Assembly: GCA_030568195.1 (NCBI GenBank)
Contig: JAJLTO010000004.1
Span: 1,116,001-1,180,000 of the forward strand
Source of the DNA: Dipodascopsis uninucleata var. uninucleata
Taxonomy: Eukaryota; Ascomycota; Lipomycetes; Lipomycetales; Lipomycetaceae
Length of the DNA stretch: 64,000 nucleotides
Reading direction: 5' to 3'
Every line of letters starts with the position of its first letter. Position 1 is the first letter of the stretch. The translations under genes and the position numbers were made by a program. The notes under the pieces are model-generated. The model made no database searches, was not told the DNA's origin, and was given only the letters and a program-made list of their open reading frames with translations. This document shows, in pieces, positions 1,401-62,972 of the stretch.

Positions 1401-1991
1401 ATGAAATTAGTACGGTATGTATGATTGATCTGGTAATTACGTGCTCTATGAATTCGATGTTCTAATGGATTGTGTTATAGGTTTCTTATGAAATTGACTT
1501 CGGAAACAGTTCAGATTGAACTGAAGAATGGTAGGTGTTTATTGATTGCGGTGATTGTATTCATCGCTTTGTCAATGATACGCAATATATTTTCAATGCA
1601 TTATTTGGTCACTGTTGTTTAACAAGATTGATTGAATAAATTTATTGACTGTTCTAATTTAGGAACAATTGTGTCTGGAACAGTCGTTTCCGTTTCGCCT
1701 ACGATGAACACGATGCTGAAAACAGTGAAGATGACAATCAAGGGTCGTGATCCTATATCACTAGATTACATTAACATTCGAGGTAATAACATCCGATATT
1801 TCATTCTCCCTGATTCACTTCCTCTTGATACATTGCTCGTTGACGACGCTCCAAAGCCCAAAAATAAAAAGCGAGGAGAGCCTGGATCAAAAGCTAGAGG
1901 AGGTGCTAGAGGAGGTGCTAGAGGAGGACGAGGTGGTGGTCCCAGAGGCGGTCGTGGAGGAAGAGGAGGAAGAGGAGGAAGAGGATTTTAA
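1401..1991 (+). CDS. SMD1: Small nuclear ribonucleoprotein Sm D1
   Basis: Core Sm-ring protein of the U1, U2, U4 and U5 snRNPs in the nucleus. There are three exons, 1401-1414, 1481-1530 and 1663-1991, giving 130 residues. The start MKLVRFLMKL, the NG pair in ELKNGT, the [20 protein letters not shown] segment and a C-terminal Arg-Gly-rich tail (about residues 98-130) match Sm D1 throughout. The tail is encoded by GAGGA/GGTGG repeats, the usual arginine-methylation region. Both introns have TTCTAAT branch sequences close to the acceptor. The first exon encodes only four whole codons, so the gene is easily missed without splicing. Identification is firm. Confidence 0.97.
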
Positions 1992-9966: not shown

Positions 9967-11242
9967 TTATTTCTGAAGGACAGCACCAGCTGGAGCAGGC
10001 ATCAAGGCTCCTGGTGGCGGGGTGTTCTTGGATTTGAAATCATCAGCCATCTCGCCCATCGTGACCCATTCGACACCCTCGTGAGAGTTGATGAACTCAA
10101 TGATTCTACAGCAATCAGCTATTAACTATCTCGCAATATCCAAAAGCATAGAAGAGCAAAATTGCTTACCTTTCATGCATAAGAAGGACATGGGGACGTC
10201 CTGAGACATCTGGGTGGATCGTCATTGGAAAAATAAACTCATCATGCTCACGATAGAAATACTCAAAGTGATCTTTCCAGATATCCTCAATGTCTCGTGG
10301 GTTGACATAACCGTGAGAGTTAGGTGCAGCCTTAATGAACATCTTCATAGGGAATAGTTAGAGTTGGACAGAATCTAATATAGTTCCAAAATATTACATA
10401 CCATTGGAGGAAGATCATCGATATACCAGTTTCCTGGTATCTCAACAAGGCCGGTATCCTGGCCGTATACAAGAGGCTTCATCCATTCCTCTGCCTTCTT
10501 GCTGTAGTCAATCTTTGTCCAAGAGTCTCCAGTTCTAAGCCAGTAGGCTTGGCAGTCATGATGACTCAAAGAATGATCGTATTCAATGCCATATTTCAAC
10601 AAGAGTTCAGCACCCTCCTTAGAAGTCTCCCACCAAGGAGCAACGCTTCCCTTGGGTGGTTTACCACAAAAATCAGTCAGCAACTTGTAAGTCTTGTCGA
10701 GCACATCAGCCTGCTGCTCAATGGTCATGTCGGCGGGATTCTCGTGAGAATATCCATGAAGACCGCTATAAACATACAATGCGACGAATGCGGTCAGTAC
10801 ATATTAAAATCAGCTGTCTTCTAAGAAAAAACTCAACTTACATTTCATGACCACCATCACGAATCAACTCACACTCCGCAGGGAAAGTCTCAAGAGAGTG
10901 ACCAGGAATGAACCAAGTTGCTTTGATACCATACTTGTCAAAAAGCTTCAATAAACGACGTACACCAATGGTACCAGCCCAAAGACCTGCATATGGCACG
11001 TTAACACACAGTACAGTTTTTGTAGTCTTATATGACACTCACCTCGAGAAATATCGTTAGAAGAATCTTCTCCGCCATATGAGCCAAGCCAACCGGCAAC
11101 AGCATCGATATCGACACCATAGCAGACGAGGACACCTAATTTAAGCCAATTATCGTTAGAGCCAACTACATATTTTCTGCTGTCACTGTGTATTTATAAA
11201 CCGCGCATTACAATGCCGTGATTACTTACGTTTCTTTCCCAT
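9967..11242 (-). CDS. CE4 polysaccharide deacetylase / imidase-like hydrolase
   Basis: Metal-dependent hydrolase of the NodB/CE4 fold. Six exons: 11242-11230, 11135-11043, 10986-10842, 10765-10402, 10342-10170 and 10105-9967, giving 308 residues. It lacks a signal peptide, so it is probably cytosolic. From the N-terminus one sees [36 protein letters not shown], the metal motif LHGYSHENP (two His), VAPWWE, and the terminal HVLLMHE. From established knowledge this subfamily, which includes bacterial PgdA-like proteins and cyclic imide hydrolases, is cytosolic and differs from secreted chitin deacetylases. The substrate is therefore open: cyclic imide or allantoin-like amide hydrolysis is as likely as sugar deacetylation. 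It is transcribed divergently from an amidase. Confidence 0.85.
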
Positions 11243-19284: not shown

Positions 19285-20794
19285 CTACTTCTTGTCATTG
19301 CCATAAGATCTAGTAGCGTAATGACCATCGATAACAATCAAATCCTGAGGACGATAGTTCTTTGAACCGCTAAGAAAGGTTTCGATAATATTCTTTGTTC
19401 CATTGGCATATCGCACTTGCGCATCAATTGAAGTACCAGACATATGTGGTGTCATGGCATTGCCACCTCCGTACTGGTTTCGCATTGAACGCCAAGGATG
19501 ATTTGCCGGTGCTGGCTGAGGAAACCACACATCGCCACCGTATCCGCGAATCTGGCCGGACTTCAAAGCGTTGGCAACATCTTCTTTGACACAAATAGCA
19601 CCCCTAGCGGTATTCACAAGCCATGAGCCTTTCTTGAATTTCGAGAGAAGCTGCTTATTAACCAGTCCTTTAGTATGCTCGTGCAGAGGGCAGTTAATTG
19701 TTACTACATCTGCCTGAGCGACCATTTCCTCGAGAGATTCAACACGGCGACAATTAAGTTTCTTCTCGACATCTGCAGGAAGTGCCTGGTAATCATAGTA
19801 CAAAAGCTCCTTACAGTCAAATCCATTAAGTCTGCGAAGGACAAGCTGTCCAATTCGCCCAGCACCAATTGTAGCTACCACTTTGTTCTCCAAGTCAAAT
19901 GAGTTCTTGGCAACTGCTGCTACGTCCCATTCATTCGCGACGATCTGTTCATGTGCAGGTACGAAGTTACGCACAAGCTAGATAGCACAGCAAGTATTAA
20001 GTCAGTATCAACACGATTCTTAATTTCCCTTTCACATCTGAAATACAACGCGCAAACACACACTCTGAATATTCATAAAACATCCATCCCATAAAAAAAG
20101 GTTTAATGGTTCATATAACTTAAAGCCATAAATAACATCGCATGCAATGGGAAGTATTCCGAGTGTGGCATTTCACGTGACTCATATCGTAACTCTAAGT
20201 TTCCATTTTGAACTCATAGTTTCCGGAAATGGAAATAAAGCTGCCGATGAAGGAAAATAAGTCTACTTACAGTAAGCATGGTCATAACGACATGTTCAGC
20301 AACCGATGTGACGTTGGATCCGGTCACTTCAGCGACTGTAATCTTTCTCTTGTTTGCGTACTCTAGATCGATATGATCAGATCCAACACCAGCCGTAACT
20401 AGAAGACGTAGGTTCTTTGCCTTCTCAATTCGCTCGCGATTAATATACCCTGGGTGGAAAGGGGTCGTGATAACTATGTCAGCATCGACAATCTCTTTGT
20501 CCAAGACGCTGTCGGCACCTTCTTTGGAGTCCGTAGTAACGTAGGTGTGACCTAGAGACTCCAACCAAGGTCGTAGGCCTAGCTCATTCTCAAGACACCC
20601 GTACATACGGGGCTCGTCTTTAGCATGCTGACCGCCCTAGATCAAGATATTCATTCGTAGTTAGAAAGATTTTTTTCCTGCCATTTTATATAGTAGCGTG
20701 CCTTGATCTTATATATTCCCCGCAAATTACGAATATTGATTCGCACTTAAATCAGACTTCGAATTACCTTGTACAATACTGCTAACACCTTCAT
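19285..20794 (-). CDS. FDH1: NAD+-dependent formate dehydrogenase
   Basis: Cytosolic D-2-hydroxyacid dehydrogenase family enzyme that oxidises formate to CO2 with NAD+. Exons 20794-20768, 20636-20271 and 19977-19285 give 361 residues. It starts MKVLAVLYK and continues [20 protein letters not shown]. Formate-binding residues lie in [19 protein letters not shown] and [11 protein letters not shown]. The Rossmann motif is [13 protein letters not shown] and the catalytic region is [19 protein letters not shown], with the His of the QH pair region. The second intron is 293 nt, far longer than most here, and carries a CACGTGACTCA motif. FDH in yeasts either detoxifies formate or serves methylotrophy. 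Nothing else in the window indicates methanol use. Confidence 0.95.
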
Positions 20795-31699: not shown

Positions 31700-34016
31700 A
31701 TGACGCTATTAGTTGTGTGCCTGTAAGTAAATATTCTGGTAAACATTTTGAGATAGTGCGAAAGAAATGAATAAATGTCTGAGCTATGTGTAAGCAAGGT
31801 TTACTGCAGTGAATAACAGCTAACTAATAACGCATTTCTTGACTATTTTGTTCCGGATTTAAAGATACTTGCCAAATACGATTGATTTCAACTTGAACGA
31901 CCCCAGTCTTGTGGAGCAAAAGATTGGGACACCAGTCTTGTCCCAAACGCCTTCCCTGTCAACGACTTACGATCTTCCGTCCCAGGCACCATCAGCTGGA
32001 ACTTCAAGCGTATCGACTCTTACTACTTCGGGAACTCTCACAAATGGACCACTTCCGAACTTCATTCAATCACTTGCATCGCGGGTAACGTCTGCTCATA
32101 ACACGCCTCCTCCGTCGCCTCCCCTGACGACTGAAATCGAGGAATTTTTTTTTAAGACGGGATCTGGGACGTCATCCTCCAGTCATTTACCTAACTTGGT
32201 CTCATCTACCTTGGCAGATATCAATTCGAGTTCAAACACGGCTTCTACGCCCAGTGCTCTCGAATTTGAGAACAATTTCAGATCTGAATATGCTCGATCA
32301 ATGAAAAAAATCGCCGAAACTCGTCCTAACACGGCGAGTCCGTCAAACATAGGCACTGCCTTCAGAGACGGGTCTGAGCCATTGAGTGGATCACCAGATT
32401 CAATGTTATCTTCTACATCGCAGTCTCGTCTTTCCGGCGGTAATCGACCTCCTCTTACAATGGTTACACATCCTAGATCTCGGGCGAATTCACCACCACC
32501 AGCTAAATCCTTAGTTGACGAGCGCAGACAGAGCATTCCAAATGTTCCTTCTTTGAGAATGGCACCTAAACGACCAAAAAATATTAACGTTGTGTCACCA
32601 TCTGAAGCAGCTTCTGTTTTTTCTCGAGCTCCGTGGACAGTTGTAAAATTTAGCAAAGGTAACGGTGGCCTTCGAAATGCTATCGCAAGAGCGCAGGCCG
32701 AGGGTACTGTTCAGGATGTTAAGTGGATAGGTACTCTAGGTATGCCTACAGATGCCTTGGAGCTGTCAACTAAGGCGGTTATTGAGAATATTCTCAAGAA
32801 AGACCATAATAATATACCTGTATTTGCTGGCGACTCAACTATTGAGGGCCATTATACGCATTACTGCAAAGACATTCTTTGGCCAACTTTCCATTATCAG
32901 ATTCCTGACAACCCAAAATCCAAGGCATATGAAGACCACTCTTGGGTTCATTATCATGCACTTAATAAGGCTTTTGCAGATACTGTCATCAAGAATTATA
33001 AACCAGGTGACATTATCTGGGTCCATGACTACCATCTCTTGCTCGTTCCAGGAATGGTACGCGAGAAATTACCTGAAGCTAAAATTGGATTTTTCTTACA
33101 TATTGCATTCCCTTCTAGTGAGGTTTATCGCTGTCTTCCAGCACGTAAGACTCTTCTTGAGGGAATGCTTGGAGCGGATGTGGTTGGGTTCCAGACCAGA
33201 GAATATGCCAGGCACTTCCGTCAGACTTGTGAGGTGGTTCTGGGATTGCATAGTTCAGGGAATTACATAAACTATAAAGGTCGAAGATTATCCGTGGTTG
33301 ACATTTCTATCGGAATTGATCCGCCTTCATTGCAATTAGCTGCAGAGAATGCGGATGTCAAACAATGGCGCACAATGCTGAGAGAGCGATGGCCCGATAT
33401 GAAACTTATTGTTGGTCGTGACAAATTAGATCAGTTTAGAGGTGTCCGAAATAAAATGCTAGGTTATGAACGTTTTTTGAAGTTCCACCCTGAATGGAAA
33501 GAGAAAGTCATTTTTATTCAAGTGTGCTTAACAAATATCGCATGTCAGGATCTTGAATCAGATGTTTCTGATATAGTTACTCGTATTAACTCGTCAAACT
33601 CGCATGTGGGGTCAGAACCGCCTGTCGTGTTTTTGCACCAAGACATTTCATTTGAGCAGTATTTGGCGCTTCTTTTTGAAGCTGATGCGTTCGTCGTCAC
33701 GTCACTGAGAGAAGGAATGAATCTCACTTGCCATGAGTATATTTTCTGTCAAGAGCAATCCTCTAAGGGCCCGCTTATTTTATCTGAGTTCACTGGTAGT
33801 GCCTCAGTACTAGGTGATAAGTGTCTTTTGGTTAATCCATGGGACAAAGTGGAAGTTGCGGACGCTTTTTATAAGGCATTAACAATGCCACTCGAAGAGA
33901 GAAAGGAGCGATGTGATGCACTATATAGCGAAGTTATGACGAATACCTGCGCTCATTGGGTCAAGCTATTCCTTAGAGAACTTGACGCTGTCTGTGACAA
34001 ACGTTACTCAAACTAA
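31700..34016 (+). CDS. TPS3: TPS3/TSL1-type trehalose-phosphate synthase complex subunit
   Basis: GT20-family protein of 724 residues. Exon 1 is 31700-31722 and exon 2 is 31865-34016; splicing joins MTLLVVCL to YLPNTIDFNLNDP, the typical start of regulatory subunits Tps3 and Tsl1. The intron is 142 nt with CTAACTAATAAC upstream and an AAAG acceptor. Residues 30-260 are Ser/Pro-rich, a likely phospho-regulated linker. The GT20 domain follows (WVHDYHLLLVPGMVREKLP, GADVVGFQTREYARHF). The active-site loop reads VGRDKLDQFRGVRNKML, where catalytic Tps1 has GVDRLDYIKGVPQKL. This implies a regulatory, probably inactive synthase. The protein stops at the end of the GT20 domain; the phosphatase-like domain usual in Tps3 and Tsl1 is absent. 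Confidence 0.85.
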
Positions 34017-41891: not shown

Positions 41892-44800
41892 TTATGTAGT
41901 GGATTCTTTGCTTGTTACGTCACTTCCTAAAGAGCGTATCTCTTGCTGTGAATCTTCAAAGTTCTCTGACACATCTGAATTAGCAGATCCATCTGAGCTC
42001 TGATTCAGATAGTCGAAGACATAGTCAAATTGGTTCGCTTGAGCTTGAGGTTCGCCACAAGCACCAGCCATTATAGTTTCATTAACATCTGAAGAAATGT
42101 CCATACTATTAGGAAGCAACGGCGTTTGACTTCCTTGATCTGCTCCATTTGACTCCACCACTTGCCCTGTCGGTTCATGTTTTTCCACAACATTATTATC
42201 TTCATTATGATCCTCTACTCGCTGTTTAATAACGTCACTAGTGCTACCGACAGTTGTCACTTCAGTCGCCATTCCAGACTCATGTTCAGGTTTTCCATGA
42301 GTAGTCAAAATCCCTCTCACTGTATCTGTATCTTGATTTTCCTCGGATACAACTATATCTAACTGCTCTTGTAGTGATTCACCAATCTCCTCCAGTCGCG
42401 AAGATCGTGGCTCTGAATTGTCAACTTCCTCTTTATGTTCTACTGAGATCACTCTGTCTGATTGTTCTACTAAGGAACCACTATTTGATATTTCATTACC
42501 ACCTACACTGGCCTCTGATGAAATCTCTAAGTTTTCATCTGTCTGAGTGGATTTCGCTAATGAGTCCGTACTATCATTAGTATCTGCATTGAAGTTATCT
42601 GAAACTTTTGACGCTATATTCTCACTCTCATTTGAATTTGTATCGTCCATAGATGAAATAGATTTATCCAATGACGACGATGAGCTGTCATTTGAATCAG
42701 ATCTCCCTTCAGGCTTATCTAACTGAAGGCGTCTTTGTGTCTGGGCTCGTCGAGCTGCAGCTCGCCGACGTGCTGCCCTTGCATCACCCGTCTGAGGACC
42801 CGCCGCTCTGAGCTTGGCAAGTAAATTATCCATAACCGCAGCACTTTCCGACGTATCCTTTTCTGTTTCCCCCCCACGAGCCTTTCCAAGATCATCAAGT
42901 ACGACAGCTTTCTTCTGTGCTTCCAAAATATTTTTTCTTCGTATCTCATATAATCTCTGTTCCTCCTCGCGCTGAAGGTTTTCTTTTCTAGCTTTCTGAA
43001 AGTCAGAGAGAAAATTAGAGAACTTCAAGAAAAATGTCTGCCTTGATGAAGAATCCCTCACGTCTTCACCAAAGTATTTTAAAACATTATCAAAAATAGT
43101 TTGTGTATTCCGTAGATGCTCCTCCATATATTCCTTCTTTTTTCTAGCTTCAGGGAGAAATGGAACAATTACTTTTAAAACTCTATCTTCAGGATGGAAA
43201 ATACTTCTATCTGACAGATTGCCAAAGTCTATAGAGTCCTGAACGTTTTTAATTGCCTGCACAAATTGTCTGCAGTCAGACTGAAGCTGCTCTACTGATA
43301 ACTTCGAGGCGGGAACGACAACACTTAAATCGTCCAAAAACGCATCTAAATAAGGGAAAGATGTCCGTACAATTTTTTCCACATAATGCAAAAACGTCAT
43401 TGTATTTTGTTCATCCTTGGTAAATGCCAGTCGCTGAAGAGTGCCTACTTTAAAACCAGTCGCTTGCTTCTTCGGGTCGTTCATGTAATTTCCAACTGCA
43501 AGAATAATATCCAAAAGACTTCGAAGATTACCAGAATGCCTGATGGCTTCACTAGCTGAATCTATAAGTTTGAGCTTACCGACAAGCTCTTCATAATCTT
43601 TCTCTAGATTCTGGGTCAGAAGAAGAGCCCGCATTCTAGATCGCCAATATCCTTGTAAGTTAAAGCATAGCTCCAAATATAGCTGATCAGCTCTCGAAAG
43701 TTCTGAAGGGTCTTTCTCACGTGTACGTTTTTCTGTAGAATTTGACCAAATCGTACTATATGGTATGAAGTTACGTGATACTGAATCAGGTATTCGCGTG
43801 AGCTCATCTTTAGCCAAAAACTCCAGGACGTTACCATTTCGCATAACATCCTTGTCACATCGCAATATCTTAAAAATCAACTCGTCAACAGGCAAATTTG
43901 CGAATGCATGAAGATTGATCATAAACTGCTGCGCTAAATCACGAGATATAAAACTTTTCTTCTCCTCATTCTTGTTCTTTGAGGTATTTGTAAGCTTCTT
44001 CACTTCTTTAGCAGCAAAGATACGTTCCACTTCTGCGAAGATACCTTTAGAGTAAAGTACGCCATAAATCTCAGCCCGTGAAGCCTTTTTCTTCTTTTTG
44101 CTCTTTGTCTTTCGTTTTGCAGACTCATTTTTGTCAAACTGTTCGTCTGTTCCTTCTCCGTTGGTCAGGCTAATTCCTCCATCACCTTCATCATCAGTTT
44201 CTTCTTCCTCATCTTCCTCGTCTTCCTCCTCGTCTTCAAGCTCATTGTCATCTTGTGCCCAAAGAGTGTACTCCACTGCATCCAACTTCTCCCAATGCAT
44301 AGGTTTCAGTTTCTTTCGTGGCCGGATTCCTAAAGTGCCTGGGGACTCTTCTTGCGCTGCAGTCGCCTTGGAAGGTTGTCTACCAGATGATGGTGGTGGT
44401 AAAGGTGGCGCCATAGGAGCTCCTCCAGCACTTGGAAGAGGGGGAGGTGGTGGTGGTGGTGCTCCATTAGTACCTGGAAGAGGAGGCGCTGGAGGTGGTG
44501 GTGCTCCGCTAGCACCTGGAAGAGGTGGTGCTGGAGGTGGTGGTGCTCCGCTAGCACCTGGAAGAGGTGGTGCTGGAGGTGGTGGTACTCCACTAGTACC
44601 TGGAAGAGGAGGTGCTGGAGGTGGTGGTGCTCCACCTGAAATTTGAGGAGGCGCAGGTGGTGGTGGAATTGCAGATGGGTCAGCTTCTGGTATTATATCA
44701 TCTGCCGCAGTTGCCGACATTGAAGGTGGTGGTGGTGGTGGTGGTGGTGGAGCAGAATCAAGAGGCACAAGACTATCATTGCTTTGCACATACTTGAGAT

Positions 44801-47800
44801 TCTCAGGCATAGATGGAGGTAAATGATGTAGTGGTGGACCTCTGGCAGCGTCTTGAATTATATCAGCACCAATCGCATCAATAGACCCTGTAGCATTACG
44901 AATATTCGCAGGAGAAGTAAAGACCTCGGTCTTACCTCTAACAGAACCTAAAGCAGCACCTCCAACAGAACCACTAAAAGAACCACTAACAGAACCGTCA
45001 ACAGCGTTTCCTATTGAGCCTTCAGTTGCAGTGCCTGTCCTTGCTCCCAATAGCGAAGACTCCGGTCGTGATGAGCCGTTAAAATCGCCTTCCGACAAAT
45101 TTGTCTTGGATACACTCGAAGCTTCAAAACCAGACTGGAATAAAGCTGATCTACCCTTTGTACCATCACGATCCATGATAGAAATAGCAGATGACGTTAC
45201 ATGCCCTGGAATATCAGCAAGCAAAGCCGATTTTGATGATAAACTACTATTTGTTCTAGTCATGACATTATCCGAAACGTGAAGCAGTCCAGATGATCTA
45301 GAGGGCGAGATAGATGAATCCTCATAAGTCATCCGATCCTCCCTGCTATCATCTAGAAGCATAGAACGTACAACATATCCACGGGATCCTCTATTAGAGT
45401 TTGGGGACTTCTTTGGGGTAGAATGCTCTGAAGATTCATGCTCAGATATGTACACTTCTGGAGCACCATACGCAGTAGAAGCCTCATAAGTAGCTGATTC
45501 TTCATCGTCACTATCATCGATTTTTTTGACTCTGCTAGTGAGCTCTGCCAAATAAGACTGCGAAACATCCTTTAATACAATAGAATCTCTCGGTAGAGGT
45601 TTCCTTGGTCCTCTTGGTTTACCTATAGTAGCTCCTCTAGCTTTCTGTTCCTGACCATTATCCCCATAGTCACTATGACTCGATATATCATCTGTAGACT
45701 CTTCTTTAATGAGAGGGTTATAAGACTTGCGTGATTGAGTAGTTTCAATAGAAGACATAGAATCCGACTTCAAATGAGATGTAGAATATCTTCCTCGTGA
45801 TGCAACATAACTATCGCGAGACCTAGAACTTCCCAAAACAGCATTACTAGCAATATTCTGATAGTATTCTTGTTCTTTAGCTTCACGTTGTACAATATCC
45901 ATTCTTTGTCTGAGTTGTAATAACTTGGCTGATGGTTCAATACTACTGTCCCATGCTCGACCTTCAGCTCTGTAATCATTAAGACGATTCTCTAGTTGAG
46001 CCTCCAAACGATCGAGAAGTTCTCGCTTATTAATACCACCATTATTAGTTATAGAACCAAATGTTGGTTTGCTATAAGGTGAAAGACTATCTTGCTCATA
46101 AAGAAGCAAAAATAGCTCTCGTATCTCACTTTCTGCATTTTGCAGTTGTATCATATGCTGACGAGTGAGTTCCTCAATCTGATTTTGAAGAGCTGCATTT
46201 GCCTTTTTCTGCAAAGATATAATCTCTGCTTGCTCTGTTAACTCTTTTTGAAGTTTGGCAACCATACCATCTGCCCCTAGAGCTACTTGCGCAGCCATTT
46301 CGTCTCGCTCGGCCAATGCGATTTCTGCCTTCTTGTTCGCTTCCATTGCTTCGAGAACAGCTCGTCTAGCTTGATCTTCCGTAGACATCTTATTCATGAT
46401 CTCCTGTACCGAGAACTGAAGCGTAGAACGCAGGTCTCTGTCAGGCAATATACGATCCATCACCACATAAGATAAAATTCCATCGATGAGTTTGAATACA
46501 TGAGCCCTATCTTCTGTCATGTCGTCACGAACCAGTAACATATGTTGCATTGTAGATACGAAGAAATCTTCCGAACCAGTTCCTTTGACACGTCTCCAAA
46601 TATCCTCTGCAATTTCCACTGGATCGTCAAGATCACGTATTTCATCCTCCTGTAGCCTTTCCATAAGATCTTCGTAATCAAGAGCAGCTGCATCTTCGTA
46701 TTGCTGGATTTGTTCATCTATCAAATCATAATGAAATTCTTGCATTATTTCAACAATACGAGGTAATCCCGCTGATTTTAATTGAGATCTAATATGAACT
46801 CGAACTTTTATATCCTCAGAGCCTTGAGCTAGAATGTTGATTAAGAGAAGAGTAGCTACGCTGTATTCCATTAACATACTTTCAGATCCGATTCCTCCAG
46901 CTCTGACTTCTTCGCTTGCACCAACCATCGAACCCATTTTTCCGCGACCAGTGAGTGTTTTCTCAACTGTTTTCAACCAACCGTCGAATCTATTCTGTTC
47001 ATTGAGATTGCTTTTAAGTTGATCAAATGCATTTATCACTTGTGTATGGCCATAAGGACGAGCCCAATGTGCCAAAAATGTGAGGATATCAGTAACGAGC
47101 TTTCTCGTACTAAGACGAGGAGAGACTATTGACCCAATAAGAGCAGGAATGCATCTAGTCGACTGTAAAGCTTCGTCTGCAGCGTCTTCAAGATTAAGAA
47201 GAGCTTTTAGGCATTTGACATAATCATATTCACGCTCAATTTCCTCTTCCTTAAATCTAGAATATCGTGTATTTATCTGCTGAATAACGGTGCACAGAGC
47301 AAGCTGACCCTGCGCTTCGCAAAACTGACGAACCCATACAATTGGCTCAGTTCGCAAGCATACCCAAAGATTTCCCAACTGCTTAGCACTAATAGACCGA
47401 TCCATTATTTTACGAACATACCACTCGGGTGTATTTTCATTCTCTCGCGCAGATCCTCTTCGGCGCTCATTTTGAAATTCGGTCAAAGCATCTTGATGAA
47501 TTAACATCCATTTTTTAGCTGTTGGATAATTTAACATTTGCTGTCGAGCCTGCTGAGGTAATGATTTGAAATTTCGTTTGTTCATCAACTCTTGAAACAT
47601 ACGGTCGATAGCTGCATCGTTCTTTGGTTTCTCCAACATAAACTCCGATGTAGTCGAATATGACGATGCTACCGAATATCTGTTAGACGCTGTCTTCATA
47701 GCTCGTGACTGATATAAACTTCGATCGTCCGTTTCTAGAGAATATAGACTAGCTCTACTAGACATCGCTAGGTCCAAGCTACCATTTCTCGAAATATCCA

Positions 47801-48248
47801 CGATGGACGGTTGAGCGTTACCTCCTAGGCTTTGTATTGATCTCTGAGAGGACGTACTAGGTGTGTGTGACAGCACGTTTCCAACGGTAGTCGAATCGAA
47901 CGTCCCTTCATATGGTAAGTGTGGAGAAGAAGATTGTAATGATGCATTACTATGACGACTCGCAGTAGAACCTGAAGAATAAATGTGCCGCTGTGACGAT
48001 TGAGACAACTGGCTTAATGAGGGAGCTGAACCACTGGGTCCCATACCATCGCCGGTGCTAGATGAATGCTTCTTGGTACTCTGCTTTGTATGTTTTCGCC
48101 TTGCTAGGAAATGTGATCCTGAAGTTGCACTTCCAGTCCGAGTGGGTGAGCTACTAAACTGACCAGACGGCGCTGACTGCTGCTGTTGCTGCGAAGGCAG
48201 CGACAACGGCGGCGGCGGCGGCTGCTGCTGATTAGAATGGTGTTGCAT
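41892..48248 (-). CDS. BNI1: Formin (BNI1/SepA type)
   Basis: Actin-nucleating formin of 2118 residues in one uninterrupted exon. In order: Gln/Pro/Ser-rich N-terminus; GTPase-binding and FH3 (DID) region at about 205-640; coiled coil near 640-720; long Ser-rich linker; FH1 poly-proline at about 1165-1285; FH2 from LKPMHWEKLDAVEYTLW (about 1310) to about 1710, including GNYMNDPKKQATGFKVGTLQRL. A DAD autoregulatory motif VMDNLLAKLRAAG with basic follow-up RRRAAARR lies near 1800, then a 300-residue acidic Ser-rich tail. An acidic run then a Lys-rich run (about 1329-1388) interrupts the start of FH2. It should act at sites of polar growth under Rho GTPases. Confidence 0.95.
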   Translation of the reverse strand: MQHHSNQQQPPPPPLSLPSQQQQQSAPSGQFSSSPTRTGSATSGSHFLARRKHTKQSTKKHSSSTGDGMGPSGSAPSLSQLSQSSQRHIYSSGSTASRHSNASLQSSSPHLPYEGTFDSTTVGNVLSHTPSTSSQRSIQSLGGNAQPSIVDISRNGSLDLAMSSRASLYSLETDDRSLYQSRAMKTASNRYSVASSYSTTSEFMLEKPKNDAAIDRMFQELMNKRNFKSLPQQARQQMLNYPTAKKWMLIHQDALTEFQNERRRGSARENENTPEWYVRKIMDRSISAKQLGNLWVCLRTEPIVWVRQFCEAQGQLALCTVIQQINTRYSRFKEEEIEREYDYVKCLKALLNLEDAADEALQSTRCIPALIGSIVSPRLSTRKLVTDILTFLAHWARPYGHTQVINAFDQLKSNLNEQNRFDGWLKTVEKTLTGRGKMGSMVGASEEVRAGGIGSESMLMEYSVATLLLINILAQGSEDIKVRVHIRSQLKSAGLPRIVEIMQEFHYDLIDEQIQQYEDAAALDYEDLMERLQEDEIRDLDDPVEIAEDIWRRVKGTGSEDFFVSTMQHMLLVRDDMTEDRAHVFKLIDGILSYVVMDRILPDRDLRSTLQFSVQEIMNKMSTEDQARRAVLEAMEANKKAEIALAERDEMAAQVALGADGMVAKLQKELTEQAEIISLQKKANAALQNQIEELTRQHMIQLQNAESEIRELFLLLYEQDSLSPYSKPTFGSITNNGGINKRELLDRLEAQLENRLNDYRAEGRAWDSSIEPSAKLLQLRQRMDIVQREAKEQEYYQNIASNAVLGSSRSRDSYVASRGRYSTSHLKSDSMSSIETTQSRKSYNPLIKEESTDDISSHSDYGDNGQEQKARGATIGKPRGPRKPLPRDSIVLKDVSQSYLAELTSRVKKIDDSDDEESATYEASTAYGAPEVYISEHESSEHSTPKKSPNSNRGSRGYVVRSMLLDDSREDRMTYEDSSISPSRSSGLLHVSDNVMTRTNSSLSSKSALLADIPGHVTSSAISIMDRDGTKGRSALFQSGFEASSVSKTNLSEGDFNGSSRPESSLLGARTGTATEGSIGNAVDGSVSGSFSGSVGGAALGSVRGKTEVFTSPANIRNATGSIDAIGADIIQDAARGPPLHHLPPSMPENLKYVQSNDSLVPLDSAPPPPPPPPPSMSATAADDIIPEADPSAIPPPPAPPQISGGAPPPPAPPLPGTSGVPPPPAPPLPGASGAPPPPAPPLPGASGAPPPPAPPLPGTNGAPPPPPPPLPSAGGAPMAPPLPPPSSGRQPSKATAAQEESPGTLGIRPRKKLKPMHWEKLDAVEYTLWAQDDNELEDEEEDEEDEEEETDDEGDGGISLTNGEGTDEQFDKNESAKRKTKSKKKKKASRAEIYGVLYSKGIFAEVERIFAAKEVKKLTNTSKNKNEEKKSFISRDLAQQFMINLHAFANLPVDELIFKILRCDKDVMRNGNVLEFLAKDELTRIPDSVSRNFIPYSTIWSNSTEKRTREKDPSELSRADQLYLELCFNLQGYWRSRMRALLLTQNLEKDYEELVGKLKLIDSASEAIRHSGNLRSLLDIILAVGNYMNDPKKQATGFKVGTLQRLAFTKDEQNTMTFLHYVEKIVRTSFPYLDAFLDDLSVVVPASKLSVEQLQSDCRQFVQAIKNVQDSIDFGNLSDRSIFHPEDRVLKVIVPFLPEARKKKEYMEEHLRNTQTIFDNVLKYFGEDVRDSSSRQTFFLKFSNFLSDFQKARKENLQREEEQRLYEIRRKNILEAQKKAVVLDDLGKARGGETEKDTSESAAVMDNLLAKLRAAGPQTGDARAARRRAAARRAQTQRRLQLDKPEGRSDSNDSSSSSLDKSISSMDDTNSNESENIASKVSDNFNADTNDSTDSLAKSTQTDENLEISSEASVGGNEISNSGSLVEQSDRVISVEHKEEVDNSEPRSSRLEEIGESLQEQLDIVVSEENQDTDTVRGILTTHGKPEHESGMATEVTTVGSTSDVIKQRVEDHNEDNNVVEKHEPTGQVVESNGADQGSQTPLLPNSMDISSDVNETIMAGACGEPQAQANQFDYVFDYLNQSSDGSANSDVSENFEDSQQEIRSLGSDVTSKESTT
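44461..44638 (-). repeat. Formin FH1 tandem repeat, 42-bp unit
   Basis: About four to five tandem copies of a 42-base unit encode GAPPPPAPPLPGAS-type 14-residue repeats. Each copy supplies one or two profilin-binding proline tracts. Near-identical copies suggest recent expansion or gene conversion, and the copy number may vary between strains. Confidence 0.85.
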
Positions 48249-54784: not shown

Positions 54785-56637
54785 AGTCTCACTCTTCTTT
54801 TTGTTTGGGGACTCATGAGTGCTGGTTTTGTTCTACTTTTTTTTCCATCTACTATTATTATTACCAATTATATGAGCAAGCAATAAGGATTATGAAGTAT
54901 CGAGAAGATTATCTTAAAGATCAGGGAGTGGAGAAGAGAATTAAGTAGAATTGCTCTACTAAAGTCATGTTTGGTTGCTTATATATGTATATATCTTCGA
55001 ATATATATATCTATATATATAATTTACTGTTAACTGTTATACTTATTGAGTCTTTTTGAGGAGTTAGTCTATTGTCAATTTGAGGTCTTTTTAATTCACT
55101 AATTGTTTTCTATTCTATATCTGAATACAAGTGGTATTGTTTCCAAGTTTTCCATTAGTTTCAAAATTGATTTTTGTGCTTTTCAGTCTATTTCTATTTT
55201 CATTATATTTTTTGATATTCCCTCTTCTACGTTAGCATCATTGTTAATAATAATTGTTATTGTTCTTTCACTTCAATATTTCTCTTTTACATACATTGAT
55301 ATACTCTTCTGATCGAAATGGAGCTACCGCCTGTTATCTTTCTGGTCGCCTTTGAATGTATATAACAAACCTCTGCTTAGCTTTCAGATTCGAAGAATAA
55401 AGTTGCACATGCATATCTTCTTTAAGAATTGGAATGTCCTAGTACAATTAGATTTGGTACATGGATAAGCGGAACATGGATAAGTAGAACAAGCAGCGAT
55501 TGTATGTAAAGAAAGCTCAAGTTATTATGAAAATATGTGAACAGCAACTAAAGGAATGTACATATATGGAAATCAAATTTCAAGAAGTCAGAAACTGACA
55601 TCGCATAAGTTAGTTGATAGCAATTTAATGTGAAGTGCTTGGTTACCTGTTGTTCAATGAGTTTAATACATACTTATATATCCTTGAAAACTATATAGTA
55701 AACATTATGATACATCTTGTTCGCTCTTGCCACTCTCTTCATTCGTTACAATTCATCTCATAATCCATAGGCTCTATGGAAAACGTATATTGACTTTTAA
55801 AGCTTACTATGTCTGATATTCTTACAAGTACCAGTGGAATGAAAAATGGAGATTGTATCAAATTACTTAGCTAGCATTAAAACGAAATATACTGTCTCCT
55901 CTTATGATTTTAGGTCCATCAGATTCGAGACAAATTGCATATCTGCCATTAAAAGTGCAATACTACAAACTCCTTTAGATTTATTCAAAGGAAAACAGAT
56001 TTCACCTTCATATTTTTCACATTTTTTTCATTATTCTATCATATAAAAAATAGTAAACACAATATCTATCGCTAAGACATAGCATATTTTGCACTTCCTT
56101 TTATTTGTAATTTTTTTAATTTTATCTCATATTATCCTCGATTCCGTAAGAACACTCTCACATATACTATACAACTGATAAGACAATTGACTAGTACAAG
56201 TTCGATGTAAAGAAAAGAAATAACTTTAGAGAATAAAGGTAAAAAAAAGAAAAAAGGAAAAAAACCATAAAAAAAACTTTTAGTATGTAAATGCTCCAGA
56301 CCCCATGAAAACCGTACTACCAAAGACTAATATACAATACATGATACTTCGCAAGTAAAGTAAGAGGATTATAACCCTGACGACTAGCAATATAACATCA
56401 ATAAACAAGCAGCTTGTATAAGGAAAAAAATAGATATTTATATATAAAAAAAATGCAGTAAGTGTGGTAGTATATAGAGTAGAGAAAGGACACTTAGCAT
56501 CTAGGTACGTCCACAGACTAGTCTATCAAAAATTCAGGACCTACCGCCATTCACCATGATCCTTGTATAATCGAGTTCATAAGATAGAATATAAGTTAAC
56601 AAGAAAATATAAATAGACCAGTCAGTCTATTAATACT
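54785..56637. other. Convergent AT-rich spacer, TDA3 and TBP 3' ends
   Basis: A 1.85 kb very AT-rich region between convergent genes. It contains alternating TATA tracts near 54980-55020 and a purine run near 56240-56270. I see no gene, RNA or long repeat. Confidence 0.5.
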
Positions 56638-57645
56638 CTATTGCTTGCGAAATTCACTCAATACAGGATAAATGGCTTCGAAAGCAGCATAAATTTCTTC
56701 CCTAACCTTAGCTCCTGTAAGTACAATCTTACCAGAAACGAAGATCAAAAGAACAATTTTAGGCTTAACCATACGATAAATAAGACCTGGAAATAGTTCT
56801 GGCTCATACTGTAAATAAGATCAGTTAGCATATTTGTCTCTTATAACAAAACAAACACATTAAGGTATACTGCATACCGATGAGAAGTGTCCGTGAGAAA
56901 ATGCAAGACCTTCCAATCGTATTGGAAATCGCACATCACACGAACCAACAATATTCTGTATCTTAAATTCCATAAACTTGGCATTAAATCCGAGCTTCTG
57001 GATGATGCGGGCGTACTTCTTTGAAGCCAACTTCGAGTCATCCTCGCTCTTTGCGCCGGTGACAACCATCTTACCAGAAGCGAAAATCAAAGCCGTAGTC
57101 TTTGGTTCACGTATACGCATAATGACGGCCGCAAAACGCTATTAAATATTTTAAAAAAAGTATTAAAAGCTGCTCCAACTTCAAAAACCAGTCCAATAAA
57201 CCGACTTTTCAGAAGCATACCTTTGGATTATACTCTGCATTACGAGCATGTAGAGCGATAGTCTTCAGATCCAATCTGCATTCCAGATTCACAGTTGCAA
57301 CTATGTTCCTATAGATTAAAAGTAACAAATTAGCATCATGCATCCCAACAATTCTCACATTCACAAAGTAACTTACTGTAAAGTAGGTACGATGCCAGAA
57401 ACACTCGCACCAGTTCCGGATACCGCATTTCCCGTTGTAGCAGCAGGTGTTGCAGCAGGTGTGGCGGGTGCAATGTCCATTGACGGCTTGACGTCAATCG
57501 ACTGAGATGATTCAGGCATCTGATGATCAAACGGTGGCGTAATATCAGAAGCAGCCATAGGAAAAGACAGCGAAGAAGGCGAAACAAAAGCCTTTGCTTG
57601 TGCCGCAGTTCGTGGGAGAGCAAGAGAATTAATTTGACTTTCCAT
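56638..57645 (-). CDS. SPT15: TATA-binding protein
   Basis: General transcription factor of TFIID, with 262 residues. Exons are 57645-57377, 57308-57221, 57138-56878 and 56808-56638. The first 85 residues are a variable Ala/Pro/Thr-rich N-terminus. The saddle domain of two direct repeats follows: [40 protein letters not shown] with [12 protein letters not shown], then [40 protein letters not shown] and [17 protein letters not shown] codons sit at conserved leucines in NLECRLDL, evidence for the standard code. All introns are 68-82 nt. Identification is certain. Confidence 0.98.
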
Positions 57646-59796: not shown

Positions 59797-60902
59797 TTAC
59801 CAAATTAAAAACCTTTTCCGTGGTTCTTCGTGAACAATATCTCCGGGTCGGTGTGTAACGATAGACCAAGTCGTGCCCAGATGCGAGCGGTCTTCGTAAT
59901 CAATCTCCAATCCTGATCTTCGCACAATATCACCAATATCTAGATTCCATCTGCACCCAAATTTCTCTGCTCTTGGTGCAGCATTCTTGTCTAAAATGCG
60001 ATTGATGAATTCCCACGTGCCCCGGCCATGTTCAATAAGGACAATCTTTCCTCCAGGCTTTAGTAGACTCTGCAGGTGTACTAGAACTTGAACAGGGTCT
60101 TCAAATGAGCAAATACCAAATGTTTCGTAGATTACGTCGTATTTTGGACCATCCAGAGGGAGAGCCTCCGCTTTGCTGATAAGGAATTTTGCATGCGCAT
60201 AGTTGGGATTACGCTGGAAAAACTTATCTTTTGTCTTCTCCACCATTTTAGGAGAAGCATCCGCGAAAGTGATGGACTTCAGCTTCGATAGATCCAGATA
60301 AGTGATATTTCGCCCAGTTCCGCATGAAACTTCGAGAACATCACCCTGATTAAATAGTATATGAGGTTAGAATAAGATACGTCTGCCGCCAATTCGTCAG
60401 ATCCGAGTTGCAAATGATTAACACATCGTCCTTTTACGCACTATGGGCCTGCCAGGATCCAAGAATAATGGCTTCTCAATTCTTAACTCACCTGCACCTG
60501 TCGCGTAATCCATTTTCGCCATAACGGTAGAAGCATGAACTGTTCATCTCTATTAATGATACGGTCGTAATCGCTAGCAAGTCCATCGTAGATCTCGGTT
60601 GTGTCACGGACTCTGGTTTCTTCATATGGGCCATTATTTGCAACCCCCGATGTTAAGAACCAATACGATCCTGCTACAAACACCATGTAAATTCCCACAC
60701 CAGTGATAATCACCTTTCTCCGCCTGGCTTTAAGTTCTTCCGGAGAAACTGTATCTTTGCGATTTGCCTCGCTATCACTAGCAGTCGCAGCCTTTTGGTT
60801 AATACTTGCCCGCGGCTTAGGTGTGAGTGCCTTCCTCGGAACCTGCCTTGGCTGTTTCGCCGTGCTTAAGAGCCTTACTAGTGGCCTCCGCAGCGCTTGC
60901 AT
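59797..60902 (-). CDS. OMS1: Mitochondrial membrane methyltransferase Oms1
   Basis: Class I SAM-dependent methyltransferase of the inner mitochondrial membrane, 319 residues. Exons are 60902-60492 and 60345-59797; the intron is 146 nt. The ATG at 60902 is chosen because the upstream in-frame extension lacks an ATG. The N-terminus MQALRRPLVRLLSTAKQPRQ is a presequence, and one membrane helix follows (VIITGVGIYMVFVAGSYWFL, about residues 67-86). The SAM motif GDVLEVSCGTGRN is created at the exon junction. IYDGLASDYDRIINRDE, IYETFGICSFEDP and KIVLIEHGRGTW are typical of Oms1 proteins. The methyl acceptor is not established. Confidence 0.88.
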
Positions 60903-61254: not shown

Positions 61255-62972
61255 ATGTCTTACTCAGATGTGCGCATCTATATACGCCCCATAGGCCGCG
61301 ATGGTAAGTTCAAGTAAATGAATTGGTGAATGATGTTGAACGGAAAAAATCAGCAAGAGTAAAAGGCAGTACAACAATTAGATAGAAGAACGTAGTACTA
61401 TCTTACTTGTTAACTTTGGTGGATGGAGAACAAATTATTGGATCTATGATGGCGAGGAGTACAAGCTCGAAGTACTAACTGGAGATTGTGATACATTGTA
61501 TAGTCGACAAGCTAGATATCGAGGATCTTTTCAAAGGATATGGCAAGCTCGTTGAAATCAAGCTTATGAGCGGTTTTGTAAGTTCACAGCATTGAGGATG
61601 TTTGCAGACTACAGTGGCAATACTGACTGAGGATTAAGGGGTTCGTTGAATTCGAGAATCCACGAGACGCTCAAGATGTTGTGGAAGGTATGTAAATAGT
61701 TCTTGATAGGGTCGCTCGTCAATGAGTTGCTGGATTCATATCATTTTAATATTTGTCAGTTTATTTTTTGAAGGCAGTTGCTAACCACACTCGATATTAC
61801 AGAATTTAGTATGTGTTTGAAGAATAACGTCTAGCTCATTTGCTTCTGATATTCAAAGTTCTAACATCGTCATTTCTTAATAAGATAATAAAAACTTTCG
61901 AGGAGAGCGCCTTTTAGTTGAATTTGCGAAGGATCGTCGTCGTCGAGATGACCGTGATAGAGATCGTGATCCCTATAGTCGTGGACGCGATCGTGATCGC
62001 GAGAGTTTCCGGGGAGATCGCCGTCTGCGTCGCAGTGGATTTCGCTTGCTGGTATCAGGACTTCCATCGGATTGTAGCTGGCAGGTATGTTGCGTTTTAA
62101 TGATAGTGCTATACGCGTTGTGCTGCTCTTAAAAGCTGGTACTTCAGAGTATCGCCAAAATTATATCTTTAAATTTATAGGTGGTCAAAATTCATTAGAG
62201 AACATATTATTAACATTCTGTCCCTTGGGAATCTTTAACATATTAGGATCTGAAAGATTTTGCTCGACGTGCAAATATTGATATTTTATTCGCTGATGTC
62301 TCTAGAGATCGTGATGGATCGGGGTAAGCGCAGATTAATTGTTAGCTAATATTAGAGAGCTTGCCTAATATTTTTCTGATTCTAGTGTCATTGAAGTAGA
62401 GAGAGAAGACGATCTAGAAGTTGCAATGGAAAAACTTGATGGTGATGAAATTAAAGGGTCTCGAGTTACTCTTACGAAAGATGTAAGGAACTTATAATTA
62501 ATGATCTACTTAAAGCTTATGATACGATAAATTTTAACAAAATTTTGAACAGATTTCGGATGAAAGGGATCGTGACCGCTCTAGATCTCCTTACAGAGGC
62601 TCTCCACCACCTCGTAGATCTTATCACGATGATGGATATCGCCGAAGACGTGATTACTCGAGATCGCCTCCTCCACGTAGAGGTGGTAGAAGGGATGACT
62701 ACAGAAGTAATCGTAGACGTGACCGTAATCGCCATGATAATAGGGAACGTGAGCCTCGTCGTGACAGTCGTGATGGTCGAGATGATAGAGACGACAGGGT
62801 TAATAGAGACGTTGATGATCGCGAAGAGCGTGCTCTTGATGATGAGGATCGTCGTGAGAGCAGGGGAGCACCGATGGATGAAGATTATAGCGAGCACAAT
62901 TCAGACAGAGAAGTTCGCAATGGTGACAAAGATGAGAATCATAACCCGGTAGACTCAGGATCGGAAAACTAG
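61255..62972 (+). CDS. SRP2: SR-type splicing factor, Srp2-like
   Basis: Two-RRM SR protein of 323 residues in eight exons: 61255-61303, 61504-61577, 61639-61687, 61803-61808, 61885-62084, 62247-62323, 62386-62482 and 62553-62972. RRM1 shows VRIYIRPIG, GYGKLVEIKLMSG, GFGFVEFENPRDAQDVV and FRGERLLVEFAKD. RRM2 starts RSGFRLLVSGLPSDCSWQDL and includes SWQDL, the SR-protein signature resembling SWQDLKD. The C-terminal 140 residues are rich in RD, RS and acidic pairs. Layout matches fission-yeast Srp2. It acts in splice-site choice and is itself one of the most fragmented genes in the window. Exon 4 is only six bases. Confidence 0.9.
61803..61808 (+). other. Six-nucleotide microexon of the SRP2-like gene
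   Basis: AATTTA lies between a GCTAACC branch with ATATTACAG acceptor upstream and a GTATGT donor downstream. The next acceptor follows a TTCTAAC branch. Inclusion yields DVVEEFNNKNFRGER, which matches the RRM length of Srp2 (DIVNDFQGKEFMGSR) and SRSF1. Skipping keeps frame but removes two residues. Confidence 0.75.

Follow-up and report, generated by a model that had tools for sequence, protein, structure and literature searches.

On the forward strand of the window (the whole 64 kb stretch of DNA analysed), positions 61255-62972 hold an SRP2/SRSF5-like gene with eight predicted exons and a product of 323 aa (Table 1). Its features at the sequence level mark the product as a putative SRP2/SRSF5-like SR protein with two RRMs (two stretches matching PF00076 in Pfam), the stretch CSWQDLKDF in RRM2 and an RD/RS-rich tail. 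CSWQDLKDF spans the exon 5/6 junction and is matched in Npl3, SR34, SRSF1 and SRSF6 chains; the SWQDLKD motif, present in Npl3 too, is what we take to be a mark of the Srp2/SRSF4-5-6 family. In phmmer comparisons with the PDB, RRM1 scored about 64.5 bits against an SRSF6 variant (9r53) versus 46.8 bits against Npl3, and RRM2 scored 60.1 bits against an SRSF6 chain (9hx5) versus about 52.6-52.7 bits against Npl3. With both RRMs together, Npl3 had the top score among the matches listed (99.6 bits), a ranking by similarity and not by tree. By eye, the C-terminal tail is RD/RE-rich with a few RS, and RD- or RD/E-rich tails have been described for fungal SR proteins (PMC9767378). A search with an RRM2 pattern gave 46 matches in viral contigs and 410 in genome contigs, none of them confirmed, neither collection being meant for fungi.

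Table 1. Predicted features of the SRP2/SRSF5-like gene, in positions of the window
Feature	Positions	Strand	Basis
Exon 1, start codon and RRM1 beta-1	61255-61303	+	gene model, translation
Intron 1, 200 nt	61304-61503	+	gene model
Exon 2, RRM1	61504-61577	+	gene model
Intron 2, 61 nt, AAG acceptor	61578-61638	+	gene model
Exon 3, RRM1, GFVEFENPRDAQDVVE	61639-61687	+	gene model
Intron 3, 115 nt, strong signals, branch-like TGCTAAC 61779-61785	61688-61802	+	gene model, splice scores
Exon 4, 6-nt microexon AATTTA: completes Glu, encodes Phe, starts Asn	61803-61808	+	sequence, gene model, splice scores, shuffles, window scan
Intron 4 (76 nt), donor context and AAG acceptor both weak, branch-like TTCTAAC 61859-61865	61809-61884	+	gene model, splice scores
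Exon 5, RRM1 end, linker and RRM2 start up to SWQ	61885-62084	+	gene model
Intron 5, 162 nt, between SWQ and DLKDF	62085-62246	+	gene model
Exon 6, RRM2	62247-62323	+	gene model
Intron 6, 62 nt	62324-62385	+	gene model
Exon 7, RRM2	62386-62482	+	gene model
Intron 7, 70 nt, weakest signals of the gene	62483-62552	+	gene model, splice scores
Exon 8, RD/RS-rich tail and stop	62553-62972	+	gene model, translation

Across the window, the gene model predicts genes with short introns and CTAAC-like branch sites, and the Pfam scan of the longest frames (10 of 31) identified actin, aconitase, Elongator Iki1, GT20 and others. These features suggest eukaryotic and probably fungal DNA. The gene divergent from the SRP2-like gene (59797-60902, minus strand) resembles a methyltransferase by eye and is perhaps OMS1-like. 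Farther away, on the minus strand at 41892-48248, 2118 codons and a stop follow one another in a single frame, whose product looks formin-like by eye, with a proline-rich FH1 region. Tiny first coding exons are predicted in other genes, namely 14 nt at 1401-1414 (+), 13 nt at 11230-11242 (-), 23 nt at 31700-31722 (+) and 27 nt at 20768-20794 (-). A TBP-like gene recognised by eye (56541-57645, minus strand) has an uninterrupted frame, and the last intron that the splice model placed there is probably false; the model does err. Within the SRP2-like gene, intron 7 (62483-62552) is the least certain placement.

Splice signals around AATTTA

Exon 3 ends in ..GTG GAA G at 61687 and is followed by the intron 3 donor GTATGT from 61688, whose acceptor TTACAG ends at 61802. 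The microexon then meets a second GTATGT donor from 61809, the intron 4 acceptor AAG ends at 61884 and exon 5 runs from 61885. Read directly in the sequence, the exon and splice coordinates of an earlier note on this DNA were right to the base. AATTTA is a predicted coding microexon by structural definition (internal, at most 27-30 nt), being 6 nt long, with AG before it, GT after it and branch-like motifs upstream of both acceptors.

Signals were scored with a home-made gene and splice model. Its 30 training introns were predicted introns of other genes in the window, at least one of which (56562-56706, in the TBP-like gene) was judged false. The splice-site tables came initially from a fungal prior, and the starting parameters of the final model had seen the SRP2-like gene; the final model was retrained five times without the introns and coding sequence of that gene, which was masked in the noncoding background training too. 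The model whose final training excluded the gene recovered the AATTTA exon exactly. The total score of intron 3 exceeds that of 29 of the 30 training introns, and the branch score of intron 4 exceeds 28 of them. The intron 4 donor in its context (TTA/GTATGT) and the AAG acceptor each score below all 30, so that the strong signals earlier claimed for both sides of the exon hold for intron 3 and for the intron 4 branch, not for the intron 4 splice sites. Weak sites are not peculiar to the microexon, because intron 7 is weaker still: its donor and acceptor both score lower than those of intron 4, the only such intron of the gene.

Holding the start of exon 3 and the end of exon 5 constant, we compared 54 open in-frame models containing one or two GT-AG introns. 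Inclusion of AATTTA scored best (14.0 natural-log units), followed closely by AATTTA joined to the acceptor at 61902 (13.8), with skipping at 11.4. The lead of inclusion is therefore 0.2 units over the 61902 variant and 2.6 units over skipping (~13 to 1), the latter margin shifting one for one with the hand-set intron prior. On these predictions the splice scores favour inclusion just slightly, and it is the comparison of protein sequences that decides.

Protein length in RRM1

Inclusion gives the RRM1 peptide DVVEEFNNKNF and skipping gives DVVEDNKNF, both in open frames. Against Pfam RRM_1, inclusion scored 60.5 bits and skipping 53.0 bits, a loss of 7.5 bits that leaves the skip protein well over the cut-off of 20.7. 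Four further models scored 48.8-54.0 bits; the scan took in 6 of the 54 models and covered, of the eight top-scoring ones, all but the two with the acceptor at 61917. In phmmer searches of the PDB, the five alignments displayed for the inclusion form are gap-free at the microexon (Npl3 8b8s and 7qde, SR34, SRSF1 and the SRSF6 variant 9r53), whereas the skip form shows a two-residue gap against both Npl3 chains, SR34 and SRSF1. The score of 9r53 falls from about 64.6 bits with the exon to 55.2 bits on skipping, and distinct PDB sequences matched at E <=1e-6 fall from 42 to 29. The proposal in the earlier note that inclusion restores RRM1 spacing is thus upheld against SRSF1, SR34, Npl3 and the SRSF6 variant, a set to which S. 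pombe Srp2 does not belong. It had also placed the loss on skipping in the loop before beta-4. Skipping does keep the frame and remove two residues; the location was inexact, since by the standard RRM topology that we assume, the microexon residues form the end of RRM1 helix alpha-2 (completing EEF-N).

Residue identity was rejected as evidence for AATTTA: on a four-sequence RRM1 profile, 960 of the 3904 open hexamers equal or exceed it. All 3904 outscore skipping on that profile. As the AATTTA residues are not special, the protein support lies in length, and the comparisons support a need for AATTTA in keeping the conserved RRM1 length, the fit of its residues being average.

Chance expectation and uniqueness in the window

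Dinucleotide shuffling of 61695-61845, most of the 197-nt stretch between exons 3 and 5, produced an equally good 6-nt exon in 0 of 4000 sequences, and a frame-keeping exon of any length up to 30 nt with the same gain in 2 of 4000. Twelve more predicted introns, each 90 nt or longer, showed no gain from a hidden exon (six without a candidate, six negative); ten of these came from other genes and two from the SRP2-like gene, and one is the probably false intron of the TBP-like gene. On both strands of the 64 kb, AATTTA is the sole AG-exon-GT cassette of 3-30 nt at its signal level, by cut-offs set just under the values observed for it. A single intron giving the needed protein length was sought with GT, GC, AT or GA donors and AG or AC acceptors, and all four candidates carry stops. 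Birth of the exon by intron duplication was rejected as well: introns 3 and 4 are unlike, and their local score of 15 was reached by 189 of 300 shuffles.

Probable constitutive inclusion and alternative readings

AATTTA is very probably a real 6-nt coding exon of the SRP2/SRSF5-like gene, included in most or all transcripts. Two phase-1 introns would lie six bases apart in RRM1 and both would be removed, and exon 4 would supply two residues that RRM1 requires at the end of helix alpha-2. The acceptor at 61802 is both nearer to the donor at 61688 and better-scoring than the one at 61884; inclusion should therefore dominate. The position, frame, signal scores, uniqueness in the window and fit of the protein length are computed results. 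We infer removal of both introns, constitutive inclusion and intron definition as the mode: introns 3 and 4 would each be recognised across the intron, with no complex bridging the exon. Both introns are short, and neither shares its donor, branch-like site or acceptor with the other, so that each could be recognised in this way. Intron definition is given as the general mode for short fungal introns in the part of PMC4379411 available to us, and under it, according to the accessible text of PMC8624252, splicing efficiency tracks intron length and not exon length, so that a 6-nt exon between complete short introns should be tolerated. For the unc-13 microexon of C. elegans, the available text of PMC8378409 describes that a short upstream intron in place of a long one removes the requirement for PRP-40.

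The simplest competing reading is a single 197-nt intron (61688-61884), with AATTTA and its flanking signals present by chance and RRM1 two residues shorter. Such an intron has a score of 12.5, above 17 of the 30 training introns, and its product is in frame, but the absence of a comparable 6-nt exon among the 4000 shuffles and the two-residue gap against homologues make it highly improbable. That the microexon is included but joined to the later acceptor at 61902 has a near-equal splice and coding score; as it would lower RRM_1 to 50.7 bits and remove six residues before beta-4, we give it almost no credence. Intron 4 could be the regulated element beside an included microexon, with weak sites that lead to its retention and so to unproductive mRNA in which the frame stops after 67 aa. 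Its donor and acceptor, lower than those of all 30 training introns, are in keeping with this, as is intron retention as the known unproductive mode of fungal srp2 (in the available part of PMC4379411); retention of intron 1 in T. reesei Xlr2 was read by its authors, in the text accessible, as possibly inefficient microexon splicing (PMC11121469). On the other hand, the known srp2 event seems to map to another intron, each of the seven introns brings in a stop when retained, and the sites of intron 7 are weaker still; intron 4 is thus not set apart by either property. We regard regulated retention of intron 4 as unlikely, though it is compatible with constitutive inclusion of AATTTA.

The earlier note had suggested a self-regulated switch, with inclusion perhaps depending on SR-protein activity. 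In such a switch, SR-protein level would set inclusion versus skipping, giving two RRM1 variants or feedback. The frame kept on skipping, the weak intron 4 signals and a skip protein that is still RRM-like at 53.0 bits all leave room for it. Exon skipping in splicing mutants is suppressed by overexpression of S. pombe Srp2 (PMC4547733), and a link between SR activity and AATTTA inclusion is, by analogy, possible. At AATTTA itself the sequence gives the suggestion no support. The skip form is a protein of 321 aa with no early stop, and therefore no decay-based feedback would arise by the skipping route; the RRM_1 score drops by 7.5 bits; the donor at 61688 has a nearer and better acceptor at 61802; six bases would leave hardly any space for an exonic enhancer; and the srp2 event already known is retention of another intron. 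Regulated skipping thus appears quite improbable. A narrower version, in which AATTTA and the weak intron after it act as a sensor of SR activity (the exon being skipped when Srp2 is scarce, crippling RRM1, and included when it is plentiful), we consider very doubtful; if true, a fungal SR gene would have a feedback switch that keeps the frame and does not depend on decay. Our estimates for these readings are not mutually exclusive, since retention of intron 4 fits constitutive inclusion and the switch allows partial inclusion. If the gene is regulated at all, we would expect this from intron retention rather than from skipping, the candidates being intron 4 with its weak sites and the long intron 5, each of which leads to an early stop when retained.

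Intron 5 exceeds 28 of the 30 training introns in length (their median is 72 nt), and when it is retained the frame meets a stop after 141 aa. We take it to correspond to SRSF5 intron 5 and Neurospora srp2 intron 3, assuming that the human intron lies after SWQ. By analogy, 62085-62246 is probably the equivalent of the retained Neurospora srp2 intron. As far as the available text of PMC4379411 goes, fungal srp2 is known to be spliced unproductively through intron retention, coupled to NMD in Neurospora, and the retained intron is notably long in Aspergillus and Neurospora.

Comparison with known systems

Gene finders readily overlook coding exons of this size, and AATTTA is a clear case: leaving it out silently deletes two residues of an RNA-binding domain with the frame intact. 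It also lends itself to asking whether fungal spliceosomes, through intron definition, can manage splice sites six bases apart. Were its inclusion to follow SR-protein level, which nothing here shows, SR proteins would have a form of autoregulation not described before.

Very small exons are on record in fungi. The accessible part of PMC12940212 mentions in general terms exons coding for 2-10 residues, and reports a 1-nt exon in Fusarium CYP621A and an 8-nt exon in a Phanerochaete P450. The CYP621A exon resembles AATTTA as a tiny fungal coding exon that rebuilds a conserved motif and lies between two short introns resembling one long intron. It differs in being 1 nt long, so that its omission breaks the exon phase, in lying in an enzyme gene and in being confirmed by reads and 20 orthologues (PMC12940212, same part). 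Trichoderma Xlr2 likewise has a fungal coding microexon in a regulator gene, but that exon is 20 nt long and the text available shows its expression to be glucose-dependent, whereas regulation of AATTTA would be hypothetical (PMC11121469). In plants, 2,398 microexons of at most 15 nt across ten species are described in the accessible text of PMC8831610; like AATTTA, they are very small internal coding exons, often unannotated and important to the protein, and unlike it they were identified from RNA-seq; neither 'RRM' nor 'SR protein' occurs as a term in the main text. Among the matches listed from the open-licence literature, no title or abstract start names a microexon in srp2. Intron retention in fungal srp2/SRSF5 is the comparison within one gene family, being splicing-based control of an SR gene in fungi; that event retains another intron, and 'microexon' is absent from the main text of PMC4379411 as available. 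Fungal coding microexons are already known, and AATTTA would add an srp2-type case to them.
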